Virus record (IMG/VR): IMGVR_UViG_3300021142_000117
Location: 1 to 32,040 of that record
DNA: 32,040 nt
Direction: 5' to 3' (one strand)
Source: a virus
In this document: in pieces, positions 13,823 to 28,200 of the stretch
Numbering within the stretch: position 1 is the first letter of the stretch
Layout of the letters: the number at the start of each line of letters is the position of its first letter
Made by a program: the position numbers and the translations under genes
The notes under the pieces: generated by a model
Told to the model about the DNA's origin: nothing
The model's input: the letters and a program-made list of their open reading frames with translations, nothing else
The model's database searches: none

Positions 13823-16531
13823 TTATATTAACCATGAAATATCCTCTGAATGAGTACCTCCCATATGAGGAATATCCATTTTCCAAGGATTTGTATTTGA
13901 ATTATTTATTGAATTATATATTAAATTTGAATTTCCTGATTTAGTCATAGAGTCAAGACTAGCATAAGTTAAGCTCTCTGCAGTTTTTCTAAATCTTATA
14001 GATGAGTCTCTCATATACATGCCTATTGCAAAAGACATTACTAAATCATCATTATATCCACTTAGCGCTTGAGGTTTGCTATTTTTCCATATAAAAACTC
14101 TCAATTCTTCTAAAAGCCTCACTGATCTTATATTGACCTGCTTTGTCTCTATAAAATCTCTCATTCTTTCAATAATAATAGGTCTTGATTTTGTAGTCAT
14201 TGTAAATCCAGGAACTAGAGTACTAGTATTATCAAATCTATTCATTTGCTTGTCCTGATCTAGACTAAAATCTGCTTTATGGCTATAATGTAAATTTGTA
14301 TACCCCCTTTCTAAAATAGATTGAAGAACATCCCAACCAATATTTGCATTTTCTACTGCAACTAGAGCATTATTATATTCTGCAGCTGTTGCTAATATTA
14401 TATTTGCATATTCTCGTGTATCACACTGAGATTGAAATTCTGCTACTTGAGTTAATGTATCTACATCAATTACATGAAATGCTGAGTAGTCTGCGCCATC
14501 ACCTCTAGCAACGTCTGCTGAAAGTAGATATGTTTTTGTAGGAGCTGGATATTCCCAAATCCATAATGATTTATCTAACCCTCTTCTTTCTAAAGGTTCT
14601 AATACTATATTCTCTTCATACCATGAAAGTATTTCTGGAATTATTACTGTAGCACCAGAACTTGAGAAATCGCAATCGCAATTATGAACTATACCATGTT
14701 CTGTTACATATGTATGATCTTCTTCAACTTCTATATTATAAACATAACATTCATATTCACCCTCTAAGTCTTCTTTTATTAATTTTGCTTTTCTATCTCC
14801 ACCTAAATATATGCTAGATAACTCTTCATTTTTTGTTTTTAAAAAAGATCCATTAAATTTAGGATGACATATACACATTCTTCCTAATATTTCAGATATA
14901 TAAGGATCTAAATTTTTTGGATATTTAATACTTATATTATTAGCCCCCAATAAATTAGATAAATAATAAATATCATAATACAGATCTTCAGATGTTGTTA
15001 TATATTGCTTATTATAATCTAATTTTAAACATCCATCCCCTAGTAAATATCCTTCTAATACACCTTTAGATAATTCTATATTATTATTATTATAGTAAAA
15101 ATTAGATAATTTTTTATTTATAGAACTATCGCCTTCTACAAACATAGAAATTACTTGAGAAATTATTTCTGAGCATATAGAAATCTGACCCGTATTATCT
15201 TGTCTTCTTATATTAAAGGAGCTTACTCCAAATACAAGTTCTATATATTTTTGTAAATCTTGCACCCATGTATTTAATTCTGTAGAATAATTAAATGCAT
15301 ATGTTACTCTTAATCTAGTCTTAGATCCTTTAGCTAAATATAATCCTATTATCTTTCCTAATTCATAACCTAATTCTATATTACAATTATGCTTTATTTT
15401 ATGTTTTCTGTCATTTATATAAAAAGTAGAACCAGCGCATATTTTTTTAAAATGTAAAGGATTAAATAATTCATAAATATCTATAGTATCTATTTCTCTT
15501 TTTAAATTTATGTTTTTTGGTATAGTATATACTTCATCTATCTTAGAAATAGCATCATATTTATTACTATTTTCATTAGATAAAAATGGGTGATCTTTTG
15601 TAACATAAACACATTTAGAATTTTTACTGGTTTTTATTTTGTATAAATCATTACTTTCTTTTTTATATAATCTTTTTACTCTTTTAAAATTTCCGGTGTG
15701 AGTTAATACTAAATCATCAATTTTTATATCTTTTATCTCTTTTAATCCTACTGATGTAAAAATTCTAGTATTTGCACTAAAACACTCTTGTGCCGCCATT
15801 CTTATTCCAAGATCTTGATCTTGTTTATCTCTCCAAATTTGAGTTCTTTCAGGATGTACTGTCCATGGAAGTGATACAGGCACAAAACTATTTTCTTTCT
15901 TCTGAGCTTTTATATAGGATTTATGAAACCAATTACCAACACCATTAGGAGTTGACAATGCTATACACTTACCGCCAGTTGCTAATGTTTGTTGAGCTGA
16001 GCCAAAAAGTTCTTCTGCATTATCGATAAATGCAGCCTCATCCATTATAAGTAATGATACAGCTTCAGAACGTGCTGAATCACTAGCTCCAGATACTGCT
16101 TTAATTTGACTGCCATTTGTAAGTCTTAAACTAAGTCTATTATCCTCAGTAGATCCAATCTTAAGCCAAGTAGGTAGATTATCATATGCAAATCTTACTT
16201 TAGTAACCATATTCTTAGCCGTCTCTTGCTTTGTTGCAATAACTAAGACGTTTTTATCTTTATGGAATAACATCAACCACAGACTATATGCTGATGCTAA
16301 AGTAGATATACCTAGCTGCCTTGATTTATTTATAATAACATTTTTATCCCCTGAAAATAATTTTAATACTGCCTCTTGAAATGGATATAAATCAAATAAC
16401 TGCCTCCCTCTTTGAGGGTGTTGAATCATATAATATTTTCTCATAAAATAGACAGGATCTGTAGCACATTTTACAAACTCCTCTCTAATTTTATCTTTTA
16501 TATTAAGTTGTTTATTTTCATTTTCTGGCAT
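13823..16531 (-). CDS. 17: Terminase large subunit (gp17-like) interrupted by an intein
   Basis: 902 residues as translated; removing the intein (residues 250-617) leaves 534. The terminase motor packages DNA into the prohead and cuts it. The ATPase half has a deviant Walker A, NKSRQLGIST (about 68-77), with Lys69 at the start of the loop and no Lys in the usual GK(S/T) place, as in several large terminases. Walker B is LLIMDEAAF (about 160-168), followed by ALSTPNG (191-197), the coupling motif. The C-extein nuclease half begins CDCDFSSSGATVI and contains the RNase H-fold first acid in LLSADVARGDGADYSAF. The host protein is complete on both sides of the insertion. No separate gp16-like small terminase is recognisable in the window. 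Confidence 0.96.
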   Translation of the reverse strand: MPENENKQLNIKDKIREEFVKCATDPVYFMRKYYMIQHPQRGRQLFDLYPFQEAVLKLFSGDKNVIINKSRQLGISTLASAYSLWLMLFHKDKNVLVIATKQETAKNMVTKVRFAYDNLPTWLKIGSTEDNRLSLRLTNGSQIKAVSGASDSARSEAVSLLIMDEAAFIDNAEELFGSAQQTLATGGKCIALSTPNGVGNWFHKSYIKAQKKENSFVPVSLPWTVHPERTQIWRDKQDQDLGIRMAAQECFSANTRIFTSVGLKEIKDIKIDDLVLTHTGNFKRVKRLYKKESNDLYKIKTSKNSKCVYVTKDHPFLSNENSNKYDAISKIDEVYTIPKNINLKREIDTIDIYELFNPLHFKKICAGSTFYINDRKHKIKHNCNIELGYELGKIIGLYLAKGSKTRLRVTYAFNYSTELNTWVQDLQKYIELVFGVSSFNIRRQDNTGQISICSEIISQVISMFVEGDSSINKKLSNFYYNNNNIELSKGVLEGYLLGDGCLKLDYNKQYITTSEDLYYDIYYLSNLLGANNISIKYPKNLDPYISEILGRMCICHPKFNGSFLKTKNEELSSIYLGGDRKAKLIKEDLEGEYECYVYNIEVEEDHTYVTEHGIVHNCDCDFSSSGATVIIPEILSWYEENIVLEPLERRGLDKSLWIWEYPAPTKTYLLSADVARGDGADYSAFHVIDVDTLTQVAEFQSQCDTREYANIILATAAEYNNALVAVENANIGWDVLQSILERGYTNLHYSHKADFSLDQDKQMNRFDNTSTLVPGFTMTTKSRPIIIERMRDFIETKQVNIRSVRLLEELRVFIWKNSKPQALSGYNDDLVMSFAIGMYMRDSSIRFRKTAESLTYASLDSMTKSGNSNLIYNSINNSNTNPWKMDIPHMGGTHSEDISWLI
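14681..15784 (-). other. Intein with LAGLIDADG homing endonuclease inside terminase
   Basis: 368-residue in-frame insertion. Splicing elements are present: Cys1 (CFSANTRIFTSVG, block A), VYVTKDHPFLS (block B TxxH), YVYNIEVEEDHTYVT (block F), and GIVHN ending in His-Asn followed by Cys+1 of the C-extein. Autocatalytic splicing is therefore expected. The middle has two dodecapeptide-like LAGLIDADG motifs: LGKIIGLYLAKG (terminase residues of about 391-402) and VLEGYLLGDG (491-500). In the first, the usual Asp/Glu is Lys401; in the second, Asp499 is intact. The endonuclease may thus be inactive or altered. The insert is visibly more AT-rich than the surrounding terminase coding sequence, suggesting separate origin or relaxed constraint. 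Confidence 0.95.
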
Positions 16532-16627: not shown

Positions 16628-17077
16628 CTATGTAGTTTCAGGTTTTTCTACTGGAGTTTCTTCTTTTGGAATTTCAGATTTAGGTCCTATTTCTGATTCT
16701 GGTCCTTGAGCTTTTGCTGGAGCGCCAAATCTTTGTAATCTTGATATTGCAGTAGTAGCTCTTTGTATTTCTGCTATATTTAAAAGATAGTATCTCTTTC
16801 CTAATACAGTTGCTTCATAGGCTTTGCCCATATAAGTCATATAAAATATTTGACTATTTTTAAGAAGTACTTTAAATGTAGTAGGTTTTTCAGACATAAT
16901 AAATACTCCAGAAAGATATTCTTTAAAATTATCCCCCATAAGTGTAATAAGATTTTGATTTAATCTTTTATACTTTTTAAGAATATATCCCATTGGATCA
17001 GCATCAAATTCTGGATTTGAATGATCTTCATGAACTTCTTTTATTATTATTTTTAGTATGTCTGCTAATTTTATCAT
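16628..17077 (-). CDS. Small phage protein with capsid-targeting-like N-terminus (extended form)
   Basis: 149 residues, family not named. It begins MIKLADILKIIIKE; the first nine residues match the repeated MIKLxxILK pattern of this locus, but the first (L/I)xE-type end comes at Glu14. The middle (about 40-115) is a compact domain: LITLMGDNFKEYLSGVFIM, then TTFKVLLKNSQIFYMTYMGK, then VLGKRYYLLNIAEIQRATTA. I recall similar proteins beside terminase genes in environmental T4-like phages, function unknown. The last 35 residues are Pro/Glu-rich and disordered. It abuts the 86-residue gene upstream and precedes the terminase across a 96-base gap. Packaged cargo or a packaging accessory protein are both possible. 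Confidence 0.72.
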   Translation of the reverse strand: MIKLADILKIIIKEVHEDHSNPEFDADPMGYILKKYKRLNQNLITLMGDNFKEYLSGVFIMSEKPTTFKVLLKNSQIFYMTYMGKAYEATVLGKRYYLLNIAEIQRATTAISRLQRFGAPAKAQGPESEIGPKSEIPKEETPVEKPETT

Positions 17078-17337
17078 TATTTTTTTATTTGTTTTAATGT
17101 TATTATAAGATCTAGTATTTTATCAGAAATATAATTTTCATAATCTGAACTTATTTCTTTTCCTTTAAGATAATAATCTTTTATATAATCATCTATCTCA
17201 ATATCATAAAAATCTTTTAGATCTTCAATAATATCTTTATCTAGTTTTCCAGAAATTCTTAATTTTACTATTATAGAATCTAGAGTTTTTATAAGATTAT
17301 CTATATCTTTATTTCCTTCTAAAAGTCTACTTGACAT
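17077..17337 (-). CDS. Small acidic helical protein, unknown
   Basis: 86 residues, no recognised family. Composition is Asp/Glu/Lys/Ile-rich and predicted helical (IDNLIKTLDSIIVKLRISGK, then KDIIEDLKDFYDIEIDDYIK). It starts inside the end of the 125-residue gene (11-base overlap) and its last base overlaps the next start, so translation is probably coupled. It lacks the MIKL-type start of its neighbours. RLLEG near the N-terminus contains an LxE sequence, but that alone is weak. No motif suggests an activity. Confidence 0.6.
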   Translation of the reverse strand: MSSRLLEGNKDIDNLIKTLDSIIVKLRISGKLDKDIIEDLKDFYDIEIDDYIKDYYLKGKEISSDYENYISDKILDLIITLKQIKK

Positions 17338-17704
17338 ATCCTCTATCCTTTAATTTTTTCATTATATGATCTATTTTACTTGATATTTTTTCATAATGAG
17401 ATTTCATTATAGATTCATTTAATGATTCATTTACTCTAGATATAGGTTCTATATGATATCCAAAATAATTTTCTTTATTTTCTGGATTATAATACATGAC
17501 TCTTGTTTTAAAAACATAATCATTAATTTTAGGATCATACTCTTCTATGCCATGTTCTTCCCATTTATTTGATTCCGCCCAATTCTCAGCTTCATCTTCT
17601 GAATCAAAAATTTTATTTACTGGATATTCTTCATCTCCATAATCTCTAAATATAACTTTATATTTTACTATACTTTCTTTTAGTATATTTGCTAATTTTA
17701 TCAC
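17327..17704 (-). CDS. Small protein with capsid-targeting-like N-terminus, GTG start
   Basis: 125 residues, unknown family. It starts with GTG at 17704, which overlaps the TGA of the secreted nuclease gene (GTGA). This start is chosen because it yields the locus-specific N-terminus MIKLANILKE, followed by SIVKYKVIFRDYGDEEYPVN. After the ten-residue leader comes a small alpha/beta-looking part (KIFDSEDEAENWAESNKWEE resembles the helix of small 'SPOR-like' or DUF domains that bind by an edge strand, but this is not certain) and a helical Lys-rich C-terminus (YEKISSKIDHIMKKLKDRGY). If the leader is removed by the gp21-type protease at Glu10, the mature protein would have 115 residues. Candidate head-packaged protein; function unknown. 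Confidence 0.68.
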   Translation of the reverse strand: MIKLANILKESIVKYKVIFRDYGDEEYPVNKIFDSEDEAENWAESNKWEEHGIEEYDPKINDYVFKTRVMYYNPENKENYFGYHIEPISRVNESLNESIMKSHYEKISSKIDHIMKKLKDRGYVK

Positions 17705-18345
17705 TTTTTTTCAAATTTAAATCCTGTTAATTTTTCAATCTCTTCAAGATCAGTTTGCCAATGATCTAATCCTAATGGATGATCTGTTGAATTTTTAAAT
17801 ATATAAGACTTAAATTCACCAGTCTTTTTAATATAAATAACTTTCCAACATACCATAGGAATAGTTAAAGATTTTATTTTTTTAGCACATCCTACTGATC
17901 CACACCATACATATATAGAGTCATATTTAAGAGCTAATTTTCTAGTTTGAGTTTCTAATGATTTCCAATCTCCAGCATTAAGAGAGTGATATTGTGGAGC
18001 CATATTAGAAAAATAAAAACACTCTTGTAAAAGTTTTTTATCTCCACATTCATTATCTGCTGCAGGACACATATGTCCACGATCAGTACCAGAACCCACA
18101 TAATCTTTTGCTAAATTAGTCTCTTCATATAGAAGTGGATCTGGTGCAAATGCATCTTGTCTAGGAAGTGGAGTAGAACATTCAACTCTAGCTTTAGTCT
18201 CCCACCATTGTACTAATACTGGATAATGTAGACTTTTTGAATATGTAGTAGTATATCCAGTATGATATAATGTTACTGTGTCTTGACCATAGCAAATGAG
18301 TATAGATAATATACTTACTATAACTAATAATATTATTTTTTTCAT
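17701..18345 (-). CDS. Secreted DNA/RNA non-specific endonuclease (NUC/EndA family)
   Basis: 214 residues from the ATG at 18345. The longer frame begins at 18396, but its first 17 residues are unlike a leader. Starting at 18345 places a clean signal peptide at the N-terminus (MKKIILLVIVSILSILICYG) behind an A-rich leader. The catalytic motif DRGHMCPAAD (about 88-97) is the DRGH signature of Serratia-type betabetaalpha-metal nucleases (His91 general base), and SNMAPQ (about 113-118) supplies the conserved Asn for the metal site; a closing DHWQTDLEEIEKLTGF matches the family end. Several cysteines suggest disulfides outside the cytoplasm. The Cys near the signal end is not in a proper lipobox. 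It would act in the periplasm or outside the cell. It sits within the small-protein block with 4-base overlap to the next gene. Confidence 0.9.
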   Translation of the reverse strand: MKKIILLVIVSILSILICYGQDTVTLYHTGYTTTYSKSLHYPVLVQWWETKARVECSTPLPRQDAFAPDPLLYEETNLAKDYVGSGTDRGHMCPAADNECGDKKLLQECFYFSNMAPQYHSLNAGDWKSLETQTRKLALKYDSIYVWCGSVGCAKKIKSLTIPMVCWKVIYIKKTGEFKSYIFKNSTDHPLGLDHWQTDLEEIEKLTGFKFEKK

Positions 18346-18364
18346 ATTTATATTTAATATTTGA

Positions 18365-18802
18365 CTAATGTGATGATCTCTCTTGTGCATACTCATTTAC
18401 GCTATGAATATAATCGCTTGCTAATGTTATATATGCTGCAACCCATCCTGGAAGTTCAGTTCCTGGTTGTATTAAATTATATAATTGACTTGCATTTTTA
18501 ATCATATCTTTGATTTCTGCTCTTGCCATAGTAGCCTGATGTCCAGAGTCTGGTTGACCCCATACATCATTTTCATGAGATTCTTTACCACAATCTGAAC
18601 AATAACCATTAGGTTCTATTTGACCATCACATTCTAAACATGTCATATCTTCAATTGGATAAATTGATTTTATTGAATTCATATCTTGATTTTGTAAAGA
18701 TGGGATTGTATATGAATCTCTGCTTTCATTACCATATGATATTCTAGGAGTCTCTTTTGAATTTCCAGTAAATTCTTTTATAAATTGTGATAATTTTATC
18801 AT
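18365..18802 (-). CDS. Zinc-ribbon protein with capsid-targeting-like N-terminus
   Basis: 145 residues. It starts MIKLSQFIKE, ten residues ending (I)KE as in neighbouring genes, then a Ser/Asn-rich linker. A four-cysteine zinc ribbon, CLECDGQIEPNGYCSDCG, lies at about 54-71. The C-terminal part (about 88-140) is a helical module, QATMARAEIKDMIKNASQLY then ELPGWVAAYITLASDYIHSV. I recognise this LPxWV...A.DYI pattern from many uncharacterised proteins of T4-like and other marine phages; no function is known. It has an ATATTTATA motif and A-rich leader just upstream, and may begin a short transcript including the nuclease. Cargo protein is the favoured inference. Confidence 0.75.
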   Translation of the reverse strand: MIKLSQFIKEFTGNSKETPRISYGNESRDSYTIPSLQNQDMNSIKSIYPIEDMTCLECDGQIEPNGYCSDCGKESHENDVWGQPDSGHQATMARAEIKDMIKNASQLYNLIQPGTELPGWVAAYITLASDYIHSVNEYAQERSSH

Positions 18803-18815
18803 ATTTTTATTTTTT

Positions 18816-18825
18816 TATAAATATT
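18816..18825 (-). promoter_or_regulatory. Recurrent spacer motif AATATTTATA upstream of zinc-ribbon protein
   Basis: The coding-strand motif lies 14 bases before the start at 18802, in a 32-base gap. Candidate promoter element. Confidence 0.3.
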
Positions 18826-18834
18826 AATTATTTT

Positions 18835-19077
18835 TTATTCTTTTACAGAAAACCAGTCACTACACCACTTATTTGGATCTTCTATATCCATAACTCCACT
18901 CCCATTCCAAGACTGAAAATATTGATTTCCACAAATATGCTGATCATTAGTAAAATGATAATATTTACATTTTGCACAGCTAAAACCATGTTCACTATAC
19001 ATAAAAGGTTCATGATTTGAAGGAAGATCTATAGGACCTTTATTTTCCTCTTGTAATATTTTTATTAAACTTATCAT
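18835..19077 (-). CDS. Small cysteine-rich metal-binding protein with capsid-targeting-like N-terminus
   Basis: 80 residues. It starts MISLIKILQE, a ten-residue leader ending LQE, then ENKGPIDLP. The rest is a compact cysteine-rich fold: FSCAKCKYY (CxxC), HICGNQYF, and a closing DPNKWCSDWF. Four cysteines with several aromatics suggest a metal or Fe-S site; the C..C...C.N..F...DP..WC.DWF layout resembles small proteins seen in other phages, but I cannot name a family with certainty. It overlaps none of its neighbours but is one base from the 324-residue gene, so it is cotranscribed. If cleaved at Glu10 by the prohead protease the mature protein has 70 residues. Confidence 0.72.
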   Translation of the reverse strand: MISLIKILQEENKGPIDLPSNHEPFMYSEHGFSCAKCKYYHFTNDQHICGNQYFQSWNGSGVMDIEDPNKWCSDWFSVKE

Positions 19078-20052
19078 TTATATCTCTTTAGAATGATTAA
19101 ATAATTTTTCTGGATATATTCCAAATCTGGCATTTTCTATTCCAGCCTGATTATGTCCATACCTATATGATACAGCCATTATTGGATTATATTCACCAGT
19201 AGGAACATTTCCATATTCATAAATTCCATGTGTTCCTATTAATTTATATACAGACCCTGATTTTTTTATTCCTAAATTACCTATAACTAATATTTGCACT
19301 TTATTTAATCCAAAGCTCTCTCCAACTCCAAATACTGACTGCTCTTTTAATTCATTACTTTTAATATTTCTATAAAAAGAATCACGTGGATTTATAATAT
19401 AGTCATATTCTTTTTTTTCATCTAACTCTTTTTTAGATTTAATAACTGCTTTAACATCTTTTACAAAATTTTCTACTTCCTGATTTGAATTTTTTATAAA
19501 ATAGTTTATTCCACTATATTGCTGATATTTTGTTCCTCCTTTATGAGATACAAATATTTCATCTCCACTATCAGAAAATAATACATAATCTGCTTTTTTA
19601 TTAGTATAATCTCTTCTTCCTCCAATTATATTTTTATATACTTTTCCATCTTCTAATTCTATATCAACTGATCCTCCAAATTTATCAAGATCTGCTAAAA
19701 AAGATTCAAGTCCAGCCTGTTCTCCTTTTGCACCTCTTAAATTTTCAGCTTTTGATACTACTATATAAACCTCTTGACCTGTTTTATAATCCCCAATATC
19801 ATTATTTATTTTTATTTTATAGGTTTCATATATAGATGATTTTGAACCTGCAGAGTAGTCTTTTCTGTCTATTTTATTTAGACTATAGTTTTTTTCTTTT
19901 ACTCCTAAAGACTCCATAATATTCTTTATTACCTCATCTGGTTTATCGGATTCAGGTATTATATATCTAAGATGCTCTCCACGACTTATTTTTCTGCCAC
20001 CTCTATATCCTCTATGATCAAGTTCTTTTTGTATATCATTAAATAATGGCAT
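19078..20052 (-). CDS. Phage protein with possible PD-(D/E)xK-like nuclease region
   Basis: 324 residues, not assigned with confidence. Residues of about 150-190 contain KKADYVLFSDSGDEIFVSHK followed by GGTKYQQYSGINYF. An Asp at the start of a strand, then a strand ending in S-x-K, then an aromatic/Gln-rich helix, is the arrangement expected of a PD-(D/E)xK-type nuclease (D...(D/E)xK with Ser-His-Lys). I recall similar 'ISHKDG...QWGG' phage proteins, none characterised. The N-terminal basic region (RGYRGGRKISRGEHLRYIIP) may bind nucleic acid. The first ten residues MPLFNDIQKE have the length but not the usual (L/I)xE end of neighbouring leaders. It lies between endolysin and small cargo candidates. 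Nuclease function is inference. Confidence 0.65.
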   Translation of the reverse strand: MPLFNDIQKELDHRGYRGGRKISRGEHLRYIIPESDKPDEVIKNIMESLGVKEKNYSLNKIDRKDYSAGSKSSIYETYKIKINNDIGDYKTGQEVYIVVSKAENLRGAKGEQAGLESFLADLDKFGGSVDIELEDGKVYKNIIGGRRDYTNKKADYVLFSDSGDEIFVSHKGGTKYQQYSGINYFIKNSNQEVENFVKDVKAVIKSKKELDEKKEYDYIINPRDSFYRNIKSNELKEQSVFGVGESFGLNKVQILVIGNLGIKKSGSVYKLIGTHGIYEYGNVPTGEYNPIMAVSYRYGHNQAGIENARFGIYPEKLFNHSKEI

Positions 20053-20097
20053 ACTTGTTTTTATTTCAAATAATAAATCAATAAGTTTTATTATTTT

Positions 20098-20688
20098 TTA
20101 TTTTATAGAATTATAAATAATATTAAAGTTTTTAATTCTTTCTTCTATCCCAATATGACCCCCATTTACACATTTTGTTACTGCTGTTACTGCTTCTACT
20201 GATGCATCTGTACACTTTGATAGACATCTTTGAAAAAACCACGCTGCTGAAGCTAGTGGATATTTAGTAGAAACTAGATCTGGGTTTGCTACACAATCTT
20301 CTCCTATTGCTTTTGAAAATAGGGCGTAATTATCTTTTCCGGTAAGTTGAATATATCCTCTACCTCTAAATTTATACCCCTCTCCAGATATTTCTGAACC
20401 ATTGCCCATTCTATTAGCATATATTAAATTAGCTATTTTTTCAGGTTTACGTTCATATAAATTGGCTTTATCATCAGTAGGAAAATACTTGCTAAATATA
20501 GATCTTAATCCTTTAGCTCCATAATTTAGATTCTCAATAATTGATTTAAAATTTCCAGATTCGTGCATTACTTGCGCTAAAAAATGAGCTAATTTTAATG
20601 GCGTATCTAATCCAAATTTAGCTATTGTATCTGGTAATTGCTCTATAACATTATCAGAAATATGTCCTTTTAATTTTTGAATATCCAT
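20098..20688 (-). CDS. Endolysin, glycoside hydrolase family 19 (chitinase/lysozyme-like)
   Basis: 196 residues, a single GH19 catalytic domain. GH19 enzymes hydrolyse beta-1,4 links of chitin or peptidoglycan sugars by an inverting mechanism; phage members are endolysins that cut the cell wall at lysis. Visible landmarks are LAHFLAQVMHESGNFKSI with the catalytic Glu43 in HESGNF, NLIYANRMGNGSE (the second acid region), and the family core FRGRGYIQLTGKDNY (about 107-121). No signal peptide or wall-binding domain is present, so release through a holin is expected; the holin-like gene ends just 3 bases upstream. The substrate (peptidoglycan) is inferred from context. Confidence 0.95.
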   Translation of the reverse strand: MDIQKLKGHISDNVIEQLPDTIAKFGLDTPLKLAHFLAQVMHESGNFKSIIENLNYGAKGLRSIFSKYFPTDDKANLYERKPEKIANLIYANRMGNGSEISGEGYKFRGRGYIQLTGKDNYALFSKAIGEDCVANPDLVSTKYPLASAAWFFQRCLSKCTDASVEAVTAVTKCVNGGHIGIEERIKNFNIIYNSIK

Positions 20689-20691
20689 ATC

Positions 20692-21009
20692 TTAATTTTC
20701 AATGGGTTTATCACTATTAGTTTTTTGTGTTCCAAAATAATATGAGAATATCATTAGAGTTAATGTCTTAATCATATCAAATAACTGATTACTCATTTCA
20801 TCAGTCAATAATTTAATCTTAAATGCAATTACTTTATCTACTATAAATAAGGCAACTAAAGATGCAAATATCATTAATATAAACCTAACTAATACGTCTC
20901 TAGTTTGATGTATAAATAATTTATTAACATAGACTGCTGATCCTATTATGAAGCCAAGCCCCATAACTATACCAGAAATCATTATTATCATATTATCACT
21001 TGAAAACAT
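20692..21009 (-). CDS. Holin-like small membrane protein
   Basis: 105 residues with three hydrophobic segments: IIMISGIVMGLGFIIGSAVY (about 8-27), VRFILMIFASLVALFIVDKV (about 41-60) and IKTLTLMIFSYYFGTQK (about 80-96). The last segment ends in the YYFG-(T/S) pattern often seen in holin-like phage proteins, followed by a short hydrophilic tail. Holins form holes in the inner membrane that time lysis and release endolysin. Its place immediately upstream of the GH19 endolysin, in the same orientation, supports the call. Sequence alone could also fit another small phage membrane protein. Confidence 0.75.
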   Translation of the reverse strand: MFSSDNMIIMISGIVMGLGFIIGSAVYVNKLFIHQTRDVLVRFILMIFASLVALFIVDKVIAFKIKLLTDEMSNQLFDMIKTLTLMIFSYYFGTQKTNSDKPIEN

Positions 21010-21020
21010 ATTTTAAATTT

Positions 21021-21491
21021 TTATGACTTTACTAATTTTATTTTATCAATAAAATCTGCTCGGCGTATTGCTGGGATTTTTTTTATTTTTTCGATTATAC
21101 CATCGATTATAGTTTTATCAAATTTATCAAATGGTGCTGGATCTACTTTTACACTAATATCTACAATATATTTTTTAAGTTTTTCTGCAGATGGCTGCCG
21201 ATTATTTGTAACACGTACTACAGTAATACCTGTGATAGCTCTTATATCAGAGAGAATATCTGCAAGAGATCTTTGAGTAGTATCTGCCATAAGTGTACCA
21301 TTTATTTGATATATTTTAGGACTAAGTGATTCTTCTACAGTTGAGTTTATTTTTTTAGCCGCAGCGACTGCATTTTTAAAAGCTACACTACCTTTACGAG
21401 CAGGTTTCTCTCCTCGTTTATGTTTAGCTTGAATATTTGCCCAAAGTCCAGGTTTATTGACTTCTTTTAATATGTCTATTAATTTTATCAT
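21021..21491 (-). CDS. Two-domain phage protein with capsid-targeting-like N-terminus
   Basis: 156 residues. It starts MIKLIDILKE, the clearest example of the locus leader: ten residues ending LKE, then VNKPGLWANIQAKHKRGEKP. The GLWANIxxKxxRGExPxRxGS segment (about 15-37) is a short basic motif I recognise from many uncharacterised phage proteins. The C-terminal half (about 70-150) is an alpha/beta domain with SLADILSDIRAITGITVVRV and KYIVDISVKVDPAPFDKF, ferredoxin-like in outline, with no catalytic motif seen. Function is unknown; the leader and the basic motif together suggest a packaged or structural protein. It precedes the holin gene by 11 bases and directly follows the 85-residue protein. 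Confidence 0.75.
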   Translation of the reverse strand: MIKLIDILKEVNKPGLWANIQAKHKRGEKPARKGSVAFKNAVAAAKKINSTVEESLSPKIYQINGTLMADTTQRSLADILSDIRAITGITVVRVTNNRQPSAEKLKKYIVDISVKVDPAPFDKFDKTIIDGIIEKIKKIPAIRRADFIDKIKLVKS

Positions 21492-21492
21492 A

Positions 21493-21750
21493 TTATAATT
21501 TTAATATTTTTATTTTTAGTAACCCTCTCCCCTTTATTACTCTATGCCAAACTCCTCTGGGTATAAATATTTGACCTTTTATTTCAATTGGTAAATTATT
21601 ATCTAATTGAAATTTCCAATCTGCGCTGTCTATAGATTCTATTATTCTGTCTTCTTTATCTCTGTGCCACTGTAATTCTATAGGATCAATATTCTCATCA
21701 AATTCTCTGATCAAAACTTCATTTTCTAAAACATCTTTATATGGTCTCAT
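21493..21750 (-). CDS. Small cupin-like phage protein
   Basis: 85 residues. The pattern ELQWHRDKEDRIIESIDS, then DWKFQLDNNLPIEI, then FIPRGVWHRVIKGRGLLKIK matches a short single-domain beta-barrel protein seen in numerous environmental phages. HRDKxDR with a later WHRVIKG recalls the two metal-binding strand motifs of cupins (His, acid, His). Metal binding is inferred; no substrate is known. The gene sits 1 base from both neighbours in the accessory block and is certainly cotranscribed. A structural, virion-associated role is as likely as an enzymatic one. Confidence 0.65.
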   Translation of the reverse strand: MRPYKDVLENEVLIREFDENIDPIELQWHRDKEDRIIESIDSADWKFQLDNNLPIEIKGQIFIPRGVWHRVIKGRGLLKIKILKL

Positions 21751-21751
21751 A

Positions 21752-22351
21752 TTACCAAAATCCTGAAAAATTACTTTTTAATCCTAAAAGTTTTGCAAAT
21801 CGTGGCAATCTGCACGACCACCAGCCAGCTTGAGTTTTATCTTTTTTCTGTGCGCATTTATGTCTTGCTGCAAAGCTCTTTCTGGCTGCTGGATTATTAA
21901 TTTTAGCCTTAAGCCCAGTAGTATCTCCAAAACTAACCTTCTTTATCTTTCCTGTCTTGGGATTTCTGACAAATACATAAAACTTCTTGCTGCCTCCTCT
22001 ATGTGGTTTATTGAGCTCTACATGCTTTTTTGGTTTAGACTTTGCTTTAACCTCTAGTAAAAAATCAATTGTCATTGGGTAGTCTAGCGGAACTGATATG
22101 CCATTGTAGTTTCCGGTTAATCCTAGATCAGTTTCTGTCAGGTACCATGTATCTTCATCGCCTAATGATAAAAGTCCCCTATTTAGCAACTGACGCGCTT
22201 CTGTGAAAAGAGCCACAAAGTTTGCTGATTGAGGACGATAAATATTTTCATTTAAATCAAGTGAATTGTCCAAATGATAAGCAAGCCCCTCAGATATAAG
22301 GAGCTTGTTTACAGATTCATCTAAAGTTATCTTGCTTCTATCACAGCACAT
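21752..22351 (-). CDS. Conserved phage protein with Cys/His C-terminal module
   Basis: 199 residues. The C-terminal 90 residues form a module I recognise from many T4-like and other large phages: HRGGSKKFYVFVRNPKTGKI, then KKVSFGDTTGLKAKINNPAA, then RKSFAARHKCAQKKDKTQAG and WWSCRLPR. Its conserved RxxFxARHxC...WWSC arrangement suggests a small metal-binding or nucleic-acid-binding fold; the function is not established. The N-terminal part (about 1-110) is more variable and mixed alpha/beta. Near the start, MCCDRSKITLDE contains an LxE end at residue 12, a weaker form of the locus leader. The base composition is a little less AT-rich than its neighbours. Confidence 0.72.
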   Translation of the reverse strand: MCCDRSKITLDESVNKLLISEGLAYHLDNSLDLNENIYRPQSANFVALFTEARQLLNRGLLSLGDEDTWYLTETDLGLTGNYNGISVPLDYPMTIDFLLEVKAKSKPKKHVELNKPHRGGSKKFYVFVRNPKTGKIKKVSFGDTTGLKAKINNPAARKSFAARHKCAQKKDKTQAGWWSCRLPRFAKLLGLKSNFSGFW

Positions 22352-22352
22352 A

Positions 22353-22727
22353 TTAGTGTAAATATTGTAGTTTATAAAGGGTTGTCTCTATCAGCTGGTA
22401 GATCTCATCAATTAGATTCTGAAGATATGTGTCTTGTGGAAGTCTAGTTCTAATAGTATCTACATATTTAGATAGAGCCATAAAATAAACTATAGGATCA
22501 TTATCTTCTCTAAAAATTGCTGGACCATCATATCCAGTAATAATTCCATATTTGCCTTGATATGCTTCTACCCACTCATCTACTAGATCAACTATCTCAT
22601 CATAGTATTCATTAAGAGCTTTATGTTCAGCAAAAGAAGAATCTCCTTGAGCTTGCCAATGAAATATATGAGCTTGTGTTCTTGAAGCTAAAAGAGTTGA
22701 TACGAATTTTGATATAAATGGATTCAT
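22353..22727 (-). CDS. Ferritin/Dps-like small phage protein (DUF5856-like)
   Basis: 124 residues, helical. The segment HIFHWQAQGDSSFAEHKALN followed by EYYDEIVDLVDEWVEAYQGK resembles the Dps core, where HW...(F)xxxHxxxxxxYxx...D...E supplies ferroxidase ligands. Phage proteins of this type are grouped in a family of unknown function that I recall as DUF5856. The visible candidate ligands are His20, His23, His35, Glu40, Asp43 and Asp50. It is shorter than true Dps (about 150-170 residues), lacking one helix. Iron or DNA binding has not been shown for such proteins. It lies in the accessory block next to a DUF3008-type protein and the Cys/His protein, all in one transcript. Confidence 0.75.
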   Translation of the reverse strand: MNPFISKFVSTLLASRTQAHIFHWQAQGDSSFAEHKALNEYYDEIVDLVDEWVEAYQGKYGIITGYDGPAIFREDNDPIVYFMALSKYVDTIRTRLPQDTYLQNLIDEIYQLIETTLYKLQYLH

Positions 22728-22732
22728 ATTTT

Positions 22733-23719
22733 TTATTTTAAATCTAATTTTTTAATTGTATCTACTATAAATTTAGCAGCATCTTTAGAAGAATATCCAA
22801 ATTCTTTTGCAATTCTTTTTACAAATGATTCAACCATTTTTTGCTCAGCAGATAAATTAATAGATGCTTCATCCATATGCGCGCTTAAATCTTCTTCACT
22901 TGCACTTACTGCACCTTGCCCGTATTGATTTTTATCTCCAGGAAAACGAGGTATTGGTTTTATATTATATTTACCACCTACACCCGCATGTATTACTTTA
23001 TGTTTTTGACCTTTATGTGGTCCTTTATTTGGAATAACTATATCTCCTATTTTATATTTAGAGACTTCAGCATTCTCATTCACTTTCTTTTTTCCGTCTT
23101 CATCTTCTTCATTTTCATCTTCTTTCTTAGACTTTGAAACTTTTTCAAGTTTATCCATCAAGTCTTCTATTTGACTTTGTATTTGAGATATATGCTGCTT
23201 ATGTTCACTTGCATGATCTGGATTCTCTTTTGCAAGCTTCATATGATCTTTGCGCTTCTTTTCAAGTTTATCAATTGTAGTAGTTAATTTTTTAGCTACA
23301 CTATCTTTCTTCTCTTCTAGCTTTTTCATATCACCTTCATATTGTTTATGAATATCTTCTGCTACTTTTTTAGCCTCATCTTGAGTTGGATATACACCAT
23401 GTATAGTCTGATGATCAATACCATGATGTTGAGCGCCCATTACTGGATCAATTTGTTTAACCATACTATCAGGAGTACATCCAGGATATGGCTTAAGTAC
23501 TGTATGAATAGCGCCTATTGCATTATCATAATTTTCTTTTACTACTTTCTTTTTAGTAGGAAGTCCTTTAGTTTTAGTAGAAGCAAACTCTTTTGCTGAT
23601 TTCTTTGTCATTGATTTAGCTAGTTTAGATATTTTTTTTGATGGAGATTTCATTTTTCCTGTTTGCACAGCATGAACCATGCCCATTAAATGTTGTTGTG
23701 ATTTTGATTGACTTGGCAT
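22733..23719 (-). CDS. DUF3008-like N-terminus fused to coiled coil and KOW-like domain
   Basis: 328 residues. The N-terminal 55 residues (PSQSKSQQHLMGMVHAVQTG, then SKLAKSMTKKSAKEFASTKT, then KGLP) match the DUF3008 pattern common in phages and bacteria, a short basic segment of unknown function. Residues of about 120-215 form a charged coiled coil with Lys/Glu/Asp runs. Residues of about 222-262 (YKIGDIVIPNKGPHKGQKHK) look like an SH3/KOW-like barrel. The C-terminus is helical (EQKMVESFVKRIAKEFGYSS). DUF3008 proteins occur beside head and internal-protein genes of large phages; the role is not known. The basic N-terminus could bind DNA in the head. Confidence 0.7.
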   Translation of the reverse strand: MPSQSKSQQHLMGMVHAVQTGKMKSPSKKISKLAKSMTKKSAKEFASTKTKGLPTKKKVVKENYDNAIGAIHTVLKPYPGCTPDSMVKQIDPVMGAQHHGIDHQTIHGVYPTQDEAKKVAEDIHKQYEGDMKKLEEKKDSVAKKLTTTIDKLEKKRKDHMKLAKENPDHASEHKQHISQIQSQIEDLMDKLEKVSKSKKEDENEEDEDGKKKVNENAEVSKYKIGDIVIPNKGPHKGQKHKVIHAGVGGKYNIKPIPRFPGDKNQYGQGAVSASEEDLSAHMDEASINLSAEQKMVESFVKRIAKEFGYSSKDAAKFIVDTIKKLDLK

Positions 23720-24246
23720 TATATGTATATTAAATAATTATTTTTCTTTTTTAATTCTGGATAAATTTTAATAATTTTATTCATTATCATATCCGCAATT
23801 CTTTCTCTTGATTTTGATACTGGATTAAATTCTAATTTATTTGATTTTTTATTTAATAAATATTTTGGTATTATTTCATTAATTAATATTTTATAAATAG
23901 TATTTATTTTCCTATCATCTGGGCAAGATTTTATAACTGTGGGATCTTTTAATAATTTAGGATTAAAAACTATTGGTGCGTCTTCATTTACTTTATATCC
24001 ACTTTTAAACTCCTCAACTCCTATAATATACACTGCTATAATAATATTGCCGCATCTATCCTCAAACTCCCATGCTACGTGATCTCCTAAAAATTTTCCA
24101 CTAGAATACTCTGATTTACGATAATCATATGTAGAAAATTCATCTATTTTTAATTCATTTAATTTAATATACTTTTCTTCTAATAAGTCTGAGGCGTTAT
24201 GCCCTTCTATAGACCACTCTTTTAATAAATTAAAAAAATCTTTCAT
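23719..24246 (-). CDS. Unknown protein with capsid-targeting-like N-terminus
   Basis: 175 residues, unknown family. It starts MKDFFNLLKE, ten residues ending LKE, then WSIEGHNASDLLEEKYIKLN. This start resembles the T4 internal-protein leader MKTYQEFIAE in layout. The body is mixed alpha/beta: VAWEFEDRCGNIIIAVYIIG is two strands, DDRKINTIYKILINEIIPKY a helix, and the end (SKSRERIADMIMNKIIKIYP) is another helix with an S-R-x-R-I-A-x-M-I pattern I have seen in other phage proteins. No catalytic motif is apparent. It overlaps the downstream DUF3008-like gene by one base and has an ATATTTATA motif 5 bases before its ATG. Confidence 0.7.
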   Translation of the reverse strand: MKDFFNLLKEWSIEGHNASDLLEEKYIKLNELKIDEFSTYDYRKSEYSSGKFLGDHVAWEFEDRCGNIIIAVYIIGVEEFKSGYKVNEDAPIVFNPKLLKDPTVIKSCPDDRKINTIYKILINEIIPKYLLNKKSNKLEFNPVSKSRERIADMIMNKIIKIYPELKKKNNYLIYI

Positions 24247-24847: not shown

Positions 24848-25234
24848 TTATTTTTTTGATTCATATATCAATGGTTGAATTTCTCCATAATTTCTTAAAA
24901 TTACACCAGCTATATCGTGTGCGTCATTTTCAATAGGGCTTCCAGTCTCTCCTGAATCTGGTTGTAATAGTCCTAATTCATTTTGTCTATGATGAGCAAG
25001 CTCATGGGATAGTGTCCTACATATATCAGCAAGATTTCTATTTTTAATATAGACTACAAGAGATCTGGTTTGATTTGAATATTCTCCAAAAGTTCTTTTT
25101 CCTAAGACCCAATTTTTATCAGATATAAATTTGATCTTTGGCAACTTTTCAATTTCTAGAGCCTTTTTACAAAAATTTATAAAATCTACTAATATTTGTG
25201 CTTTTTTCTGTAATTCCATGCTTATAAATATCAT
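24848..25234 (-). CDS. Small zinc metallopeptidase-like protein (HExxH)
   Basis: 128 residues. The motif RTLSHELAHHRQNELG (HELAH at about 77-81) supplies two His ligands and the catalytic Glu; the third ligand is probably Glu102 in SPIENDAHDIAGVIL. The GETGSPIENDA...AG(V)I.R segment is typical of small phage metallopeptidase-like proteins related to SprT/IrrE-type gluzincins. The target is unknown; cytoplasmic, with no signal peptide. Two starts are possible: the ATG at 25234, overlapping the preceding stop as TAATG, and the ATG at 25219, which would put a GATATTTATA motif in front of the gene. I keep the longer one. It follows the Mre11-Rad50 fusion gene without gap. Confidence 0.88.
   Translation of the reverse strand: MIFISMELQKKAQILVDFINFCKKALEIEKLPKIKFISDKNWVLGKRTFGEYSNQTRSLVVYIKNRNLADICRTLSHELAHHRQNELGLLQPDSGETGSPIENDAHDIAGVILRNYGEIQPLIYESKK
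25223..25232 (-). promoter_or_regulatory. Recurrent motif GATATTTATA at start of metallopeptidase gene
   Basis: The same GATATTTATA sequence as before phoH lies 4 bases before the alternative ATG at 25219. It may mark that start or a promoter, or it may be coincidence because it lies within the first codons of the longer frame. Confidence 0.2.
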
Positions 25235-28200
25235 TATTGAAATCTAACGCTAGACACACCTTCTTTATTTTTTACTATTTCAATATGAGAATCTACAACA
25301 TCTCTTATTGTATCAATATGAGAAATCATAATAATAAACTTAAATTGAGTTTTAAGATAATTTAAAAGTATAGATATATTATTCATATTACTATGATCTA
25401 ATGCACCAAATCCTTCATCTATTGCTAAAAAATTAGGTCTAGGCAATGATGTTATATTGATCAAAGAAGATCTTATTGCAAGTGAAGATATAAATTTTTC
25501 CATTCCAGAACTCAATTCTATAGGCCATATTTTACTATCTTCATAGACTATATATGTATTTATATTTTTACCATCAGATTGAATCATTATATGAAAATCA
25601 ACTATTTGAGATAGTATATTATTAATATCATCTTGTATTTTTGGTATTACAGAACTAATTAAATTATACGGTAAACCATCTCTGCTTACTGCCATTAAGT
25701 AGTAATTATAATACTTAAATTCATTTTCTAAAGTCTTTAATTTTTCAATACTCTGCTCAGTTATTATTTTTTCTTTTTGCGCTAATTGAAGATCGGTATT
25801 ACACTGAGCTATTTCATTATTTATGATATTGAGTTCATTTTTTATGATATTTATTTTATTTTTTAACTCTTTTAATTGTGCACTTATCTCTTTATTTGAT
25901 TCTATAGCGGCCTCTTGCTCTCTATATTTTAAAATCATATTCTCATATTCACCAAGATCTTTATTGCTCTGATTTAGCTCTAATGATAGTCTATGATGAT
26001 CTGTCTGAGCTTTTAATTTATTAATTTTTTTATCTGATAATGATTTTTCTAGAGTATTATATAGGTCTATTGATTTTTCATAAATTTTAAGTTCGGCTAT
26101 ATCTTCTCTTATTTTTTTTAATTTATTAATAACCTCCGTAGCATTTTCTTTATGCCGCTCTATAGAAGCTTCTGTGGCAATTGCATCTTTTACAAATACA
26201 TTTTCCATGCAGAATTGACAATTCTTATCATATTTAAGATCCTTAAGTTTTTTCATTTTTTCAAGTTTATGAGACATTTCTGTCTTTAATTTTTCTACTT
26301 GAATTGAAAGATCCTTTTCTATTTTTATATAGTCTTGTATCTGAATTGATTTTTGATTTAGGGAGTCTATATCTATTTCTAAAATACTGCTTTCTATTTT
26401 CAATATTTCATCATCAATATCTTGTATAATCTTTTCAGATTTTTCAAGTTTTTCTTCTATTTTTTTAATATCACCTTCTATTTTTATTTTATTATTCTCA
26501 TACTCTTTAATATCAATATAGTTATTTTCTATATTTATAAGTTTAGAATTCAAAGATATGTATTCAGAATTTATAGATTCATGATTAGTCTCAATTTCAT
26601 CTTTTTTAATTTGTAAATTTCTATACTCATTAGAGTATGCGCTTATATTTAATTCTATATCTTTGAGTTTTTCAAAATGATCTATTTTTTTATACTCTTT
26701 TATTAATATAGAGTGCTCTTTTTGCTTTTCATTTGCCACAAAAGACAAGTCTTCAAATATCTTAATATCTAAAAATTGAGATAGTAAGTCTTTACGCTCA
26801 GTCTGACTCATATCTATAAATCCAGTATTATTATTTTGCATTGACATACTAGTTAATACAAAATCTTCATATGTACCTATATAAGAACGAATAATCGAGT
26901 TTGTATCTGCTCTCTCTTTTCCATTTAATGAAATCTCTACTCCATTTTCATCTATATGATAGAAATTTACATCTAATTTTACATGATCTGATTTTTGTCG
27001 TTTTGCATTTTTTTCTATGATATAGGTTTTATTATTAAATTCAAATTCTATCTTACAATGAAAATCTTTTGATTTATTATTCATTACTAAAGATGCTTTA
27101 GATGTTTTTGAACATTTATCAAATAGACAATATGTAAGTGCCTCTATAACTGAACTTTTGCCATTTGCATTTGCTGCAAATATTCCATATACGCCAGTCA
27201 TATTTGTAAAATCAATAATATTATCCTTACCATAACTAAACATATTTGAAAATTCAAACTTTTTTATAGTCCACTGTAAATTTCTAGTAGTTTCAGATTT
27301 TGGTAAATTTTCATTAAATTGTCTATTTAATGCACATATTTTAATTATCTCTTCCTCAGATAAATTAAATTTAGTATTAAGATATTCACTCAATATAGAA
27401 TTTTGATATTCAATATCTCTAACATTGATTATATTTGATTGCTGTTTAATAGAAGAACTAGAAAAATCATTGATAGATTGCAGTGATAATTCTATGACAT
27501 TTCTATCTTTTCTTAATTCTGCGCCTATCTCTTTTATTCTAGATTGAGATGTATTTTTAGTTCTAAGTCTTATATAAACATTATTTGGTATTGTAGTTGG
27601 CGCATCTTCATAAAGGCCATTTTCTACGTTTATGGTATAAAAGCAAGTATCGTTTTTGATCTCTACAAACTCTGATGTTTTAGAATCAATATCCCAAACT
27701 AGTATACCATGTACTAGAGATTCGGCATGATTTTGCATTATTAAGGAGCCTGGATAGGCTATAGTCTTAGCCTCATTTAGAAATTGCCTTTTATGAATAT
27801 CTCCTAAAAGTACTATGTCATATCCTTTAAAATCTGAAACACTTATAGAATTGTCTTCAAGTAAAAAGCCCGCATCTGTTAGTGAGCTATTAACTGGACC
27901 ATGGTACATACAGATCTTGAAGTCTGAATCTATATCAGAGGCTTTAATATAATTTTTAGGATCATCAAAAACAGACCAATGAATAAAATCAATATTTGCA
28001 AATTTATAAACTCCAGTATCTTTTATGTAGATAATATTCTTTTCTGATACAGCATTTATAATAGGTGATAAACTATCTAATCTTTGATTATTATTTAAAT
28101 TTGCATCATGATTACCTGGTATTATCAATGTGGGTAGTAAAGATGCCATTAATTTTATAAAATTTTGCACCTCTTGTACTAATTCCGGAGTTATATCTGT

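Follow-up and report, generated by a model that had tools for sequence, protein, structure and literature searches.

Why do six small and otherwise dissimilar phage proteins begin with nearly the same short peptide? This question is raised by the IMG/VR virus record IMGVR_UViG_3300021142_000117, which was analyzed here over its whole 32,040 bases (the window) and holds a block of leader-bearing genes at positions 16628-24246, just past the terminase gene. The six small leader-bearing genes of this block are herein named cargo genes 1-6. We found that their N-terminal leader is carried by unrelated proteins of related phages well beyond chance expectation, in company with a prohead protease gene, and that one version of it copies the C-terminus of the head scaffold protein gp22. 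The leader probably acts, like the capsid-targeting sequence of T4, as a cleavable address for packaging into the head, mimicking a docking peptide of the scaffold. The six genes with their leaders are as follows (aa, amino acids).

16628-17077, minus strand: cargo gene 1, member of a family of 24, itself included, in the loci searched
17036-17077, minus strand: leader of cargo gene 1, 14 residues, MIKLADILKIIIKE
17327-17704, minus strand: cargo gene 2, 125 aa, without any match in Pfam (E<=0.1)
17675-17704, minus strand: leader of cargo gene 2, MIKLANILKE, with GTG start
18365-18802, minus strand: cargo gene 3, 145 aa, with the C-terminal module PGWxxAYITLASDY
18773-18802, minus strand: leader of cargo gene 3, MIKLSQFIKE
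18835-19077, minus strand: cargo gene 4, 80 aa, Cys-rich, representing an 8-member leader-bearing family
19048-19077, minus strand: leader of cargo gene 4, MISLIKILQE
21021-21491, minus strand: cargo gene 5, 156 aa, with the segment GLWANIQAKHKRGEKP (phrog_11180; presumably DUF5872-like) and a ferredoxin-like domain
21462-21491, minus strand: leader of cargo gene 5, MIKLIDILKE
23719-24246, minus strand: cargo gene 6, 175 aa, without any match in Pfam or PHROG (E<=0.1)
24217-24246, minus strand: leader of cargo gene 6, MKDFFNLLKE

An initial annotation of this DNA had given these six start positions and leader sequences, including the GTG-started gene at 17704 and the longer start at 17077, and all of them were found as described. 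It had also held that the proteins are unrelated past the leader, and upon mutual comparison of the six bodies the best BLAST E was 0.11 and phmmer gave nothing at E<=1; ordinary full-length homology as the source of the leader likeness was not seen among them. No Pfam or PHROG match named a function for any of the six proteins.

The leader was expressed as the rule M-x-x-h-x-x-h-[LIVM]-x-E (h, hydrophobic), which fits 6 of the 37 window genes, namely the five with 10-residue cargo leaders and the gene for the major capsid protein, at a chance level of 0.1 when residues 2-30 were shuffled and with 0 of 179 internal Met-anchored 10-mers fitting. The 14-residue leader at 17077 lies outside the rule. 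The set of six cargo genes stands as initially annotated, with the leader-bearing set being wider than was noted there: leader-like starts are found in the capsid protein and in core-like proteins of the head as well.

Viral contigs were scanned at the DNA level for the pattern MIKLxxILKE, which was found in at least 119 stretches, as compared with 28 in the whole collection for the same codons in another order (loci are given L-numbers below). In the 119 leader-selected loci, 98 of 1154 further genes fit the rule (3.4 expected), compared with 1 of 259 (0.8 expected) in the 28 control-selected loci, leaving out of both counts the genes matching the selecting pattern and those whose last 60 residues were identical. 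As the 98 include many mutual relatives, Poisson or Fisher significance for this excess would be overstated. These counts and the body clustering described below took in all 119 stretches, and one table, made from 80 of them, left out proteins shorter than 60 aa (5 of 88 rows, three tiny open frames). A weaker excess, with the capsid gene itself included, was seen in 100 loci that had been collected through homology to the capsid protein or the protease (18 of 1221 genes, 3.0 expected). The closest cultured relatives by capsid protein identity, Flavobacterium phage immuto (51%) and Microcystis phage Mel-JY01 (48%), had 8 of 217 (0.5 expected) and 4 of 237 (0.9 expected) genes fitting the rule, respectively. 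As positive control, a 50-kb stretch of T4 gave 3 of 71 (0.2 expected), these being IPII, IPIII and gp24, with T4 IPI escaping the rule through its differing propeptide; crAss001, a Bacteroides phage that is AT-rich and has a head of a different type, gave 0 of 112 (0.3 expected). A wider DNA pattern had 39 matches in 10 of 12 whole records (immuto 1, Mel-JY01 4, T4 0, crAss001 0) and the reversed pattern had 0; since the other eight records had been picked for carrying MIKLxxILKE, only the four named are independent in this count.

A search of related phages for the leader on other proteins, as proposed in the initial annotation, yielded 236 leader genes after removal of redundancy, of which the leader-selected loci contributed 198, L003-L102 18, immuto eight, the window five, Mel-JY01 four and T4 three. 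About 8 of them would be expected by chance, a figure that may be somewhat low, as the clustering set allowed starts further in (90 versus 45 nucleotides). Their bodies formed 93 clusters by single linkage and 117 families once a BLAST coverage rule stopped the chaining, with the bodies of T4 IPII and IPIII being singletons. That the leader genes are diverged duplicates, of which the leader is the last recognizable part, is hardly credible: some of them do form families, the largest having 30 of the 236 genes, but the coverage-limited count of 117, the differing nature of these families (ADP-ribosyltransferase (ART), P-loop kinase, exonuclease and hydrolase) and the mutual dissimilarity of the six window bodies all argue otherwise.

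Body alignment, as well as the Pfam and PADLOC scans considered further below, covered 88 of the 117 family representatives, leaving out the capsid protein, T4, most class B proteins (see below) and some others. The alignment gave the consensus MIKLxxILKE followed by almost nothing, with Met1 and Glu10 being present by selection. Among all 236 leaders, 210 have Leu at residue 4, 221 have Ile or Leu at residue 7 and 232 have Leu or Ile at residue 8, with residues 5, 6 and 9 being variable. Because the rule fixed hydrophobic residues at 4, 7 and 8 together with Glu10, and 96 of the 236 leaders match the scan pattern, the free information lies only in the residue preference inside the allowed classes among the remaining leaders. 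Residue 11, untouched by both rule and scan pattern, was non-random when each of the 117 families was given one vote (Ile 28.5, Ser 20.3, Val 10.1, Ala 9.8, Pro 0). Leaders were also more conserved than bodies within families (e.g. 0.61 versus 0.26), which we do not take as proof because the leader rule was itself the selection criterion.

The initial annotation had further pointed to shared first bases of the leader genes. Four window leaders indeed have ATAAAATTA in common after the start codon, an identity that is only partly informative, as the codon usage of the window (ATA 0.59, AAA 0.83, TTA 0.49) gives it a chance of about 0.24 for each MIKL start. A DNA or RNA element at the start codon, such as a translation enhancer, a regulatory site or a recombination hot spot, might explain shared N-termini, and would agree with the four identical starts, unlikely by codon usage alone, and with the codon of Ile7 being ATA in 84% of cases versus 46% in bodies. 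The 96 MIKLxxILKE genes, however, have 23 different first-12-nucleotide sequences, from which we conclude that selection acts mainly on protein; the codons of Lys3 and Leu4 are moreover used as in bodies, and such an element would not account for the preferences at residues 4, 7 and 8 next to variation at 5, 6 and 9. We consider this explanation very improbable.

How, then, do these leaders compare with the capsid targeting sequence (CTS) of T4? According to PMC9026906, the first ten residues of T4 IPIII suffice for packaging, mutants assign targeting mainly to residues 4 and 7 and processing to residues 8 and 10, and gp21 cleaves after L/I-x-E. T-even internal proteins are diverse defence proteins having the CTS as their only common part, as stated in PMC3012670 and PMC9026906, and IPIII is required for infecting strain ECOR17, as given in PMC9391042. 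Provided that cleavage occurs after the conserved Glu, the window leaders have 10 residues in five genes and 14 in one, within the approximately 10-19 residues of a CTS. The five shorter leaders (cargo genes 2-6) have L/L/L/L/F at residue 4, I/F/I/I/L at residue 7, L/I/L/L/L at residue 8 and Glu at residue 10, and the longer one has L4, I7 and the end I-K-E. As with IPI, IPII and IPIII of T4, a propeptide of about ten residues with hydrophobic residues 4 and 7, L/I8 and Glu10 precedes bodies unrelated to each other, in a phage encoding a gp21-type protease. Differences are found in the sequence (MIKLxxILKE here, MKTYQEFIAE in T4), in the scale, which with 117 body families over many phages is far larger here, and in the copying of the scaffold C-terminus by one leader class, for which T4 gp22 shows no match. 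The bodies differ too, in that none of the six window cargo proteins had a Pfam or PHROG internal-protein match. T4 gp24 (MAKINELLRE) fits the rule just as the window capsid protein does, but the propeptides of gp24 and gp23 are on shell proteins, unlike the cargo leaders studied here.

The protease belongs to a head module of T4-like composition, which extends from 4359 through 16531 on the minus strand of the window and of which the following features bear on the leaders.

4359-6071, minus strand: major capsid protein, named by homology to annotated capsid proteins
6042-6071, minus strand: N-terminus of the major capsid protein, MSLVNSLLTE, which is leader-like and fits the leader rule
6104-7315, minus strand: scaffold (gp22-position gene), 403 aa, named by its place directly upstream of the capsid gene and by sequence
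6107-6133, minus strand: candidate docking motif ARMQKLAGL, the C-terminus of scaffold gp22, of which the class B leader is a copy
7503-8132, minus strand: gp21-type prohead protease (Peptidase S77), presumed cutter of the leader
8136-10010, minus strand: probable core protein of the prohead, 624 aa, containing 11 [LI]xE sites, of which the one nearest the N-terminus is at residue 23 (KFLIE)

The gp21-type protease at 7503, which the initial annotation had recognized, is clear by both Pfam PF03420 (E=1.5e-24) and phrog_207 (E=1.6e-44). An S77 gene was found in 24 of 50 leader records (23 above cut-off), in 20 of 33 of those of at least 30 kb and in 8 of 8 of at least 100 kb, compared with 2 of 28, 2 of 12 and 1 of 3 control records, respectively (Fisher p 1.6e-4 for all, 0.017 for those of at least 30 kb). 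The 50 records, out of 119, were the 25 listed ones of at least 30 kb and L191-L215 in order, and because records are fragments, a miss does not equal absence of the gene.

The leaders of the type MIKLxxILKE are here called class A. A second version, class B, reads R-MQKLAGIITE in the same register and copies the C-terminus of scaffold gp22, which in the window is ...ARMQKLAGL; this link with the scaffold was absent from the initial annotation and is new here. An [LIVN]A[GN] core was present in 59 of 61 distinct gp22-position C-termini (exceptions being L048 and T4), 52 of these 59 read R-[MWFL]-[QKM]-x-[LIV]-A-[GN], and 43 of the 59 have an [LI]xE site 6-18 residues upstream. The scaffold-type peptide also begins other proteins, with MKKQILSEQFRRMQKLAGIITES in immuto and many examples in L038-L215. 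The motif [RK][MWFLI][QKLEM]x[LIM]AG[ILV] had 84 non-redundant occurrences in 832,957 residues of T4-like loci (overlapping loci counted twice in this number of residues), 52 of them C-terminal, 31 N-terminal and 1 internal, and was found 0 times in 110,444 residues of control loci and crAss001. The 52 C-terminal copies were located at the gp22 position (44), at contig edges with scaffold-like ends (three) or on other proteins (five). Glu was found at leader position 10 in 25 of the 31 N-terminal copies, and only 5 of the 52 C-terminal ones extend to that position. Using a profile of 28 class B leaders, none of which came from the window, the window gp22 C-terminus ranked 1 of 9,966 with positions 1-7 (23.0 vs 11.7 bits), and the window cargo leaders ranked 1, 3, 5, 10, 20 and 54 of 9,855 with positions 1-10.

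Scaffold-type C-terminal ends outside the gp22 position were seen in L121:1865-4072, L131:1352-3586, L161:2276-2548, L097:7608-8498 and L210:4005-4724. The L121 and L210 proteins have a leader-like N-terminus as well, that of L121 being of class A, and the address may work also from a C-terminus.

Both leader classes were found on one and the same body module. The PGWxxAYITLASDY module of cargo gene 3 is present in 6 of 225 leader genes and in 1 of 2771 others (L223). Class A leaders precede it in the window and in L008, L027, L112 and L179, whereas its leader in L215 is of class B; a remoter relative, in L111, starts as class B leaders do but lacks Glu10. Core-type proteins, which, as seen in relatives of the window protein 8136-10010, usually start ...REKFLYEVRRD, begin in L101 and L102 as class B. 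A relative of the second domain of cargo gene 5 (SLSPKIYQI...) stands alone in L168:8252-8575, following a leader of its own (MIKLIDILNE-SYNPKIYQI). Nucleotidase homologues carry different leaders and are leaderless in L126, and a single immuto protein of 841 aa (L105:13962-16487), encoded upstream of the immuto terminase gene, combines the module of cargo gene 1 with that of cargo gene 3.

These results also bear on a destination other than the head interior. The leader is short, amphipathic and at the extreme N-terminus, as might be expected for a peptide that directs proteins elsewhere, for example to the membrane of the host, on which T4-type proheads start to form, or that serves as a degradation or translation signal, with the T4 likeness being convergent. 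Such functions, however, predict neither L/I8 before Glu10, the non-random residue 11 or the S77 association, nor the class B copy of the scaffold end and the presence of both leader classes on one module, and we regard them as improbable. The initial reading of a modular tag with a gp21 site is well supported, by the constraint on the columns known from the T4 CTS, the association with S77, the 117 families and the scaffold-derived version of the tag.

A cleavable, scaffold-mimicking packaging address would work as follows. When the prohead forms, the hydrophobic leader residues 4 and 7 would dock the protein into the interior of the scaffold or shell, probably at the site used by the C-terminal end of the scaffold, R-[MWF]-Q-x-L-A-G-[IL]-(I)K-end; this peptide is copied by class B leaders and would be imitated, in the same register, by those of class A. 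The gp21-type protease would then cut after Glu10 (L/I-x-E), releasing the body inside the head, and the freed body would exit with the DNA at infection. As the leader alone would be needed, it could be attached to any body, in line with the more than 100 body families found here. Packaging, a cut after residue 10, injection and an anti-defence role for some cargo proteins, all suggested in the initial annotation, are thus predicted from sequence.

Several observations weigh against this interpretation. L/I-x-E is a weak motif, the Ile preference at position 11 is to our knowledge atypical for T4 sites, the L223 homologue of cargo gene 2 has Pro at leader position 8, and some cargo-body homologues lack a recognized leader (e.g. 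L126:8232, a nucleotidase homologue). On the scaffold side, the window scaffold end ...NTVESDSFVARMQKLAGL has TVE rather than [LI]xE at the upstream cut site, 6 of the 31 class B leaders are without Glu10 (among them the L111 copy on the shared module), and T4 gp22 lacks the scaffold motif. When residues 8-10 were taken out of the class B profile the window cargo leaders ranked 4, 5, 34, 159, 204 and 211, and because of this drop the shared leader signal is seen to be largely Met1 and the cleavage end. A direct match between class A and scaffold was also sought and rejected: with a class A profile (67 body clusters, positions 1-7) the gp22 C-terminus was outside the top 16 of 9,966, so that the link of class A with the scaffold rests on class B as intermediate. 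Finally, a literature search on immuto gave no virion proteomics for these phages. What classes A and B have in common is the register, Met1, in part Lys3/Leu4, and the cleavage end, and the two may bind one site.

We somewhat favor the further proposal that scaffold and cargo share one address peptide, with cargo loading being a natural mimicry that would make the injected proteins a readable catalogue. The scaffold would then retain the peptide C-terminally in uncleaved form, in most cases stopping short of the cleavage residue, cargo would have it N-terminally with a Glu permitting removal by the protease, and a few other proteins would have it C-terminally. Phage P22 and herpesvirus scaffolds have C-terminal coat-binding peptides, which are alike in being scaffold C-termini able to address cargo for packaging; here, by contrast, the peptide seems to have moved to the cargo N-terminus together with a protease site, and shell docking is predicted. 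The CTS on diverse T-even internal proteins was already known, with the class B leader and its link to the scaffold C-terminus being new. Among open-licence papers, none was found to tie the CTS to the scaffold C-terminus or to report this leader in environmental phages, and no such leader appears in the accessible part of a jumbo-phage survey (PMC7824862).

What, then, would be packaged? Pfam matches above curated cut-offs among the 88 representatives included ART-PolyVal (E=1.3e-27, L136), Zeta_toxin (E=8.9e-14, a family in L207 and L117), RNase_T (7.1e-11, L120), Thioesterase (5e-10, L219), CTP_transf_like as in NadR-type transferases (4.9e-08, L114 and L135) and DUF5661 (L135). Below cut-off, and to be taken as leads only, were an NT5C nucleotidase in immuto with the leader MGNLADLLLE, a 2H phosphoesterase in L161 matching Acb1 at 20.7 bits (cut-off 27), PTS_2-RNA (L203), DHH (L183) and 2_5_RNA_ligase2. 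In total 26 Pfam families were seen, and among the matches listed, 23 of 25 families were found in one member only. PADLOC gave 8 families with one member each, mostly weak, which we do not use as evidence. Functions in host takeover would fit the annotation in a minority of cargo families only.

NadR-like transferases with leader-like starts were observed at L114:5152-8496 and L135:5019-7367, and L203:3953-5524 starts MIELKTILQQ and holds a nucleotidase-like domain; these proteins are possibly packaged NAD-related enzymes.

Prohead targeting and cutting could be true with most cargo being structural core parts, such as scaffold helpers or inner-body and DNA-condensing proteins, rather than host effectors. 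In favor of this are the leader-like starts of capsid and core-like head proteins, the position upstream of the terminase gene of the immuto protein fusing the cargo gene 1 and 3 modules, and the lack of enzymatic annotation in most cargo families. The clear enzymes named above (ART-PolyVal, Zeta_toxin, RNase_T, thioesterase and CTP_transf_like) and the great variety of cargo, with 117 families, unlike essential head proteins, speak against it, and we hold a mainly structural cargo to be possible and rather unlikely. With regards to T4 Alt, head-packaged ARTs and polyvalent proteins, the likeness consists of the ART-PolyVal domain in one leader-bearing protein (L136). On the grounds of gene context and fusions, PMC9503650 proposed that ARTs are packaged in phage heads. 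Fusion to MuF, portal or a long polyprotein is the packaging clue there, whereas here it is a short, predicted-cleavable tag; the window cargo proteins, at 80-175 aa, are not long multidomain proteins, with some relatives being long fusions, such as the 841-aa immuto protein.

T4-type phages are abundant, and for most of them we know of no account of the proteins entering the cell with the DNA. If cargo is indeed addressed by a sequence-readable tag, anonymous genes of uncultured phages would become predicted injected proteins, pointing to early counter-defence functions, and the catalogue would include ADP-ribosyltransferases, zeta-toxin-like kinases, NadR-like and nucleotidase enzymes and a possible Acb1-like phosphoesterase. 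The link with the scaffold offers a concrete hypothesis for cargo choice by T4-type heads, an explanation of which is not given in the accessible parts of PMC9026906 and PMC3012670, and the leader would add to the tags with which phage heads can be loaded with proteins.

With regards to the individual cargo genes, the module of cargo gene 1 occurs, as noted, also as a domain inside the 841-aa immuto protein. Its leader usually has 14 residues in close homologues, e.g. MIKLTDILKKILKEA in L006/L007, with a homologue in L223 having the 10-residue MIKLIDILKE instead; the idea of a local 4-residue slippage at 17077 was dropped, as the longer form prevails among close homologues. Its AlphaFold model (mean pLDDT 76.3) had the leader as a lower-confidence helix before a folded body, and a fold search gave no PDB match and two matches in a viral library, both uncharacterized, at E<=0.001. 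The model of cargo gene 5 (mean pLDDT 73.6) likewise had the leader as a lower-confidence helix, followed by a ferredoxin-like body with generic ferredoxin-like matches only (best E 1.0e-03), which named no function. Cargo gene 6 had no relative in the loci searched.

Leaderless genes were also observed in the same block. These included, at 17701-18396 among the leader genes, a DNA/RNA non-specific endonuclease (PF01223, E=1.5e-34) in which a signal-peptide-like stretch was seen by eye after an in-frame Met, a chitinase-type endolysin at 20098-20688 (phrog_181 E=2e-63), a protein with a DUF3008-like N-terminal module MPxQSKxQQ at 22733-23719 and a Dps-like/DUF5856 protein at 22353-22727.

A third leader type, of approximately M-x(2-3)-F[DN][LMIY]K[KQ]FL[TVM]ENKL, was noticed on several proteins in L103, L105 (immuto), L092, L096, L097, L102 and L111; ending in FLxE, it may be another targeting leader.

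The remainder of the head module is composed of the following genes.

10039-10995, minus strand: second large core-like protein, named from gene order and sequence
10999-11853, minus strand: further gene, between the core-like proteins and the portal
11900-13813, minus strand: portal, named from gene order and sequence
13823-16531, minus strand: terminase, named from gene order and sequence

For the protein at 8136-10010 the core role was taken from position, since it was assigned neither to a PHROG family (E<=0.1) nor to a Pfam family above cut-off. The core-like protein at 10039-10995 and the capsid protein were seen by eye to have GSGATFTxGxG in common near their N-termini (GATFTPGTGEQ in relatives). 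The terminase gene, encoding 902 aa, has an apparent intein (insert CFSANTRIF ... HGIVHN, followed by C), again judged by eye. At 25234-28395, by the same kind of inspection, a gp47-like phosphoesterase and a gp46-like SMC ATPase apparently form one fused protein of 1053 aa.

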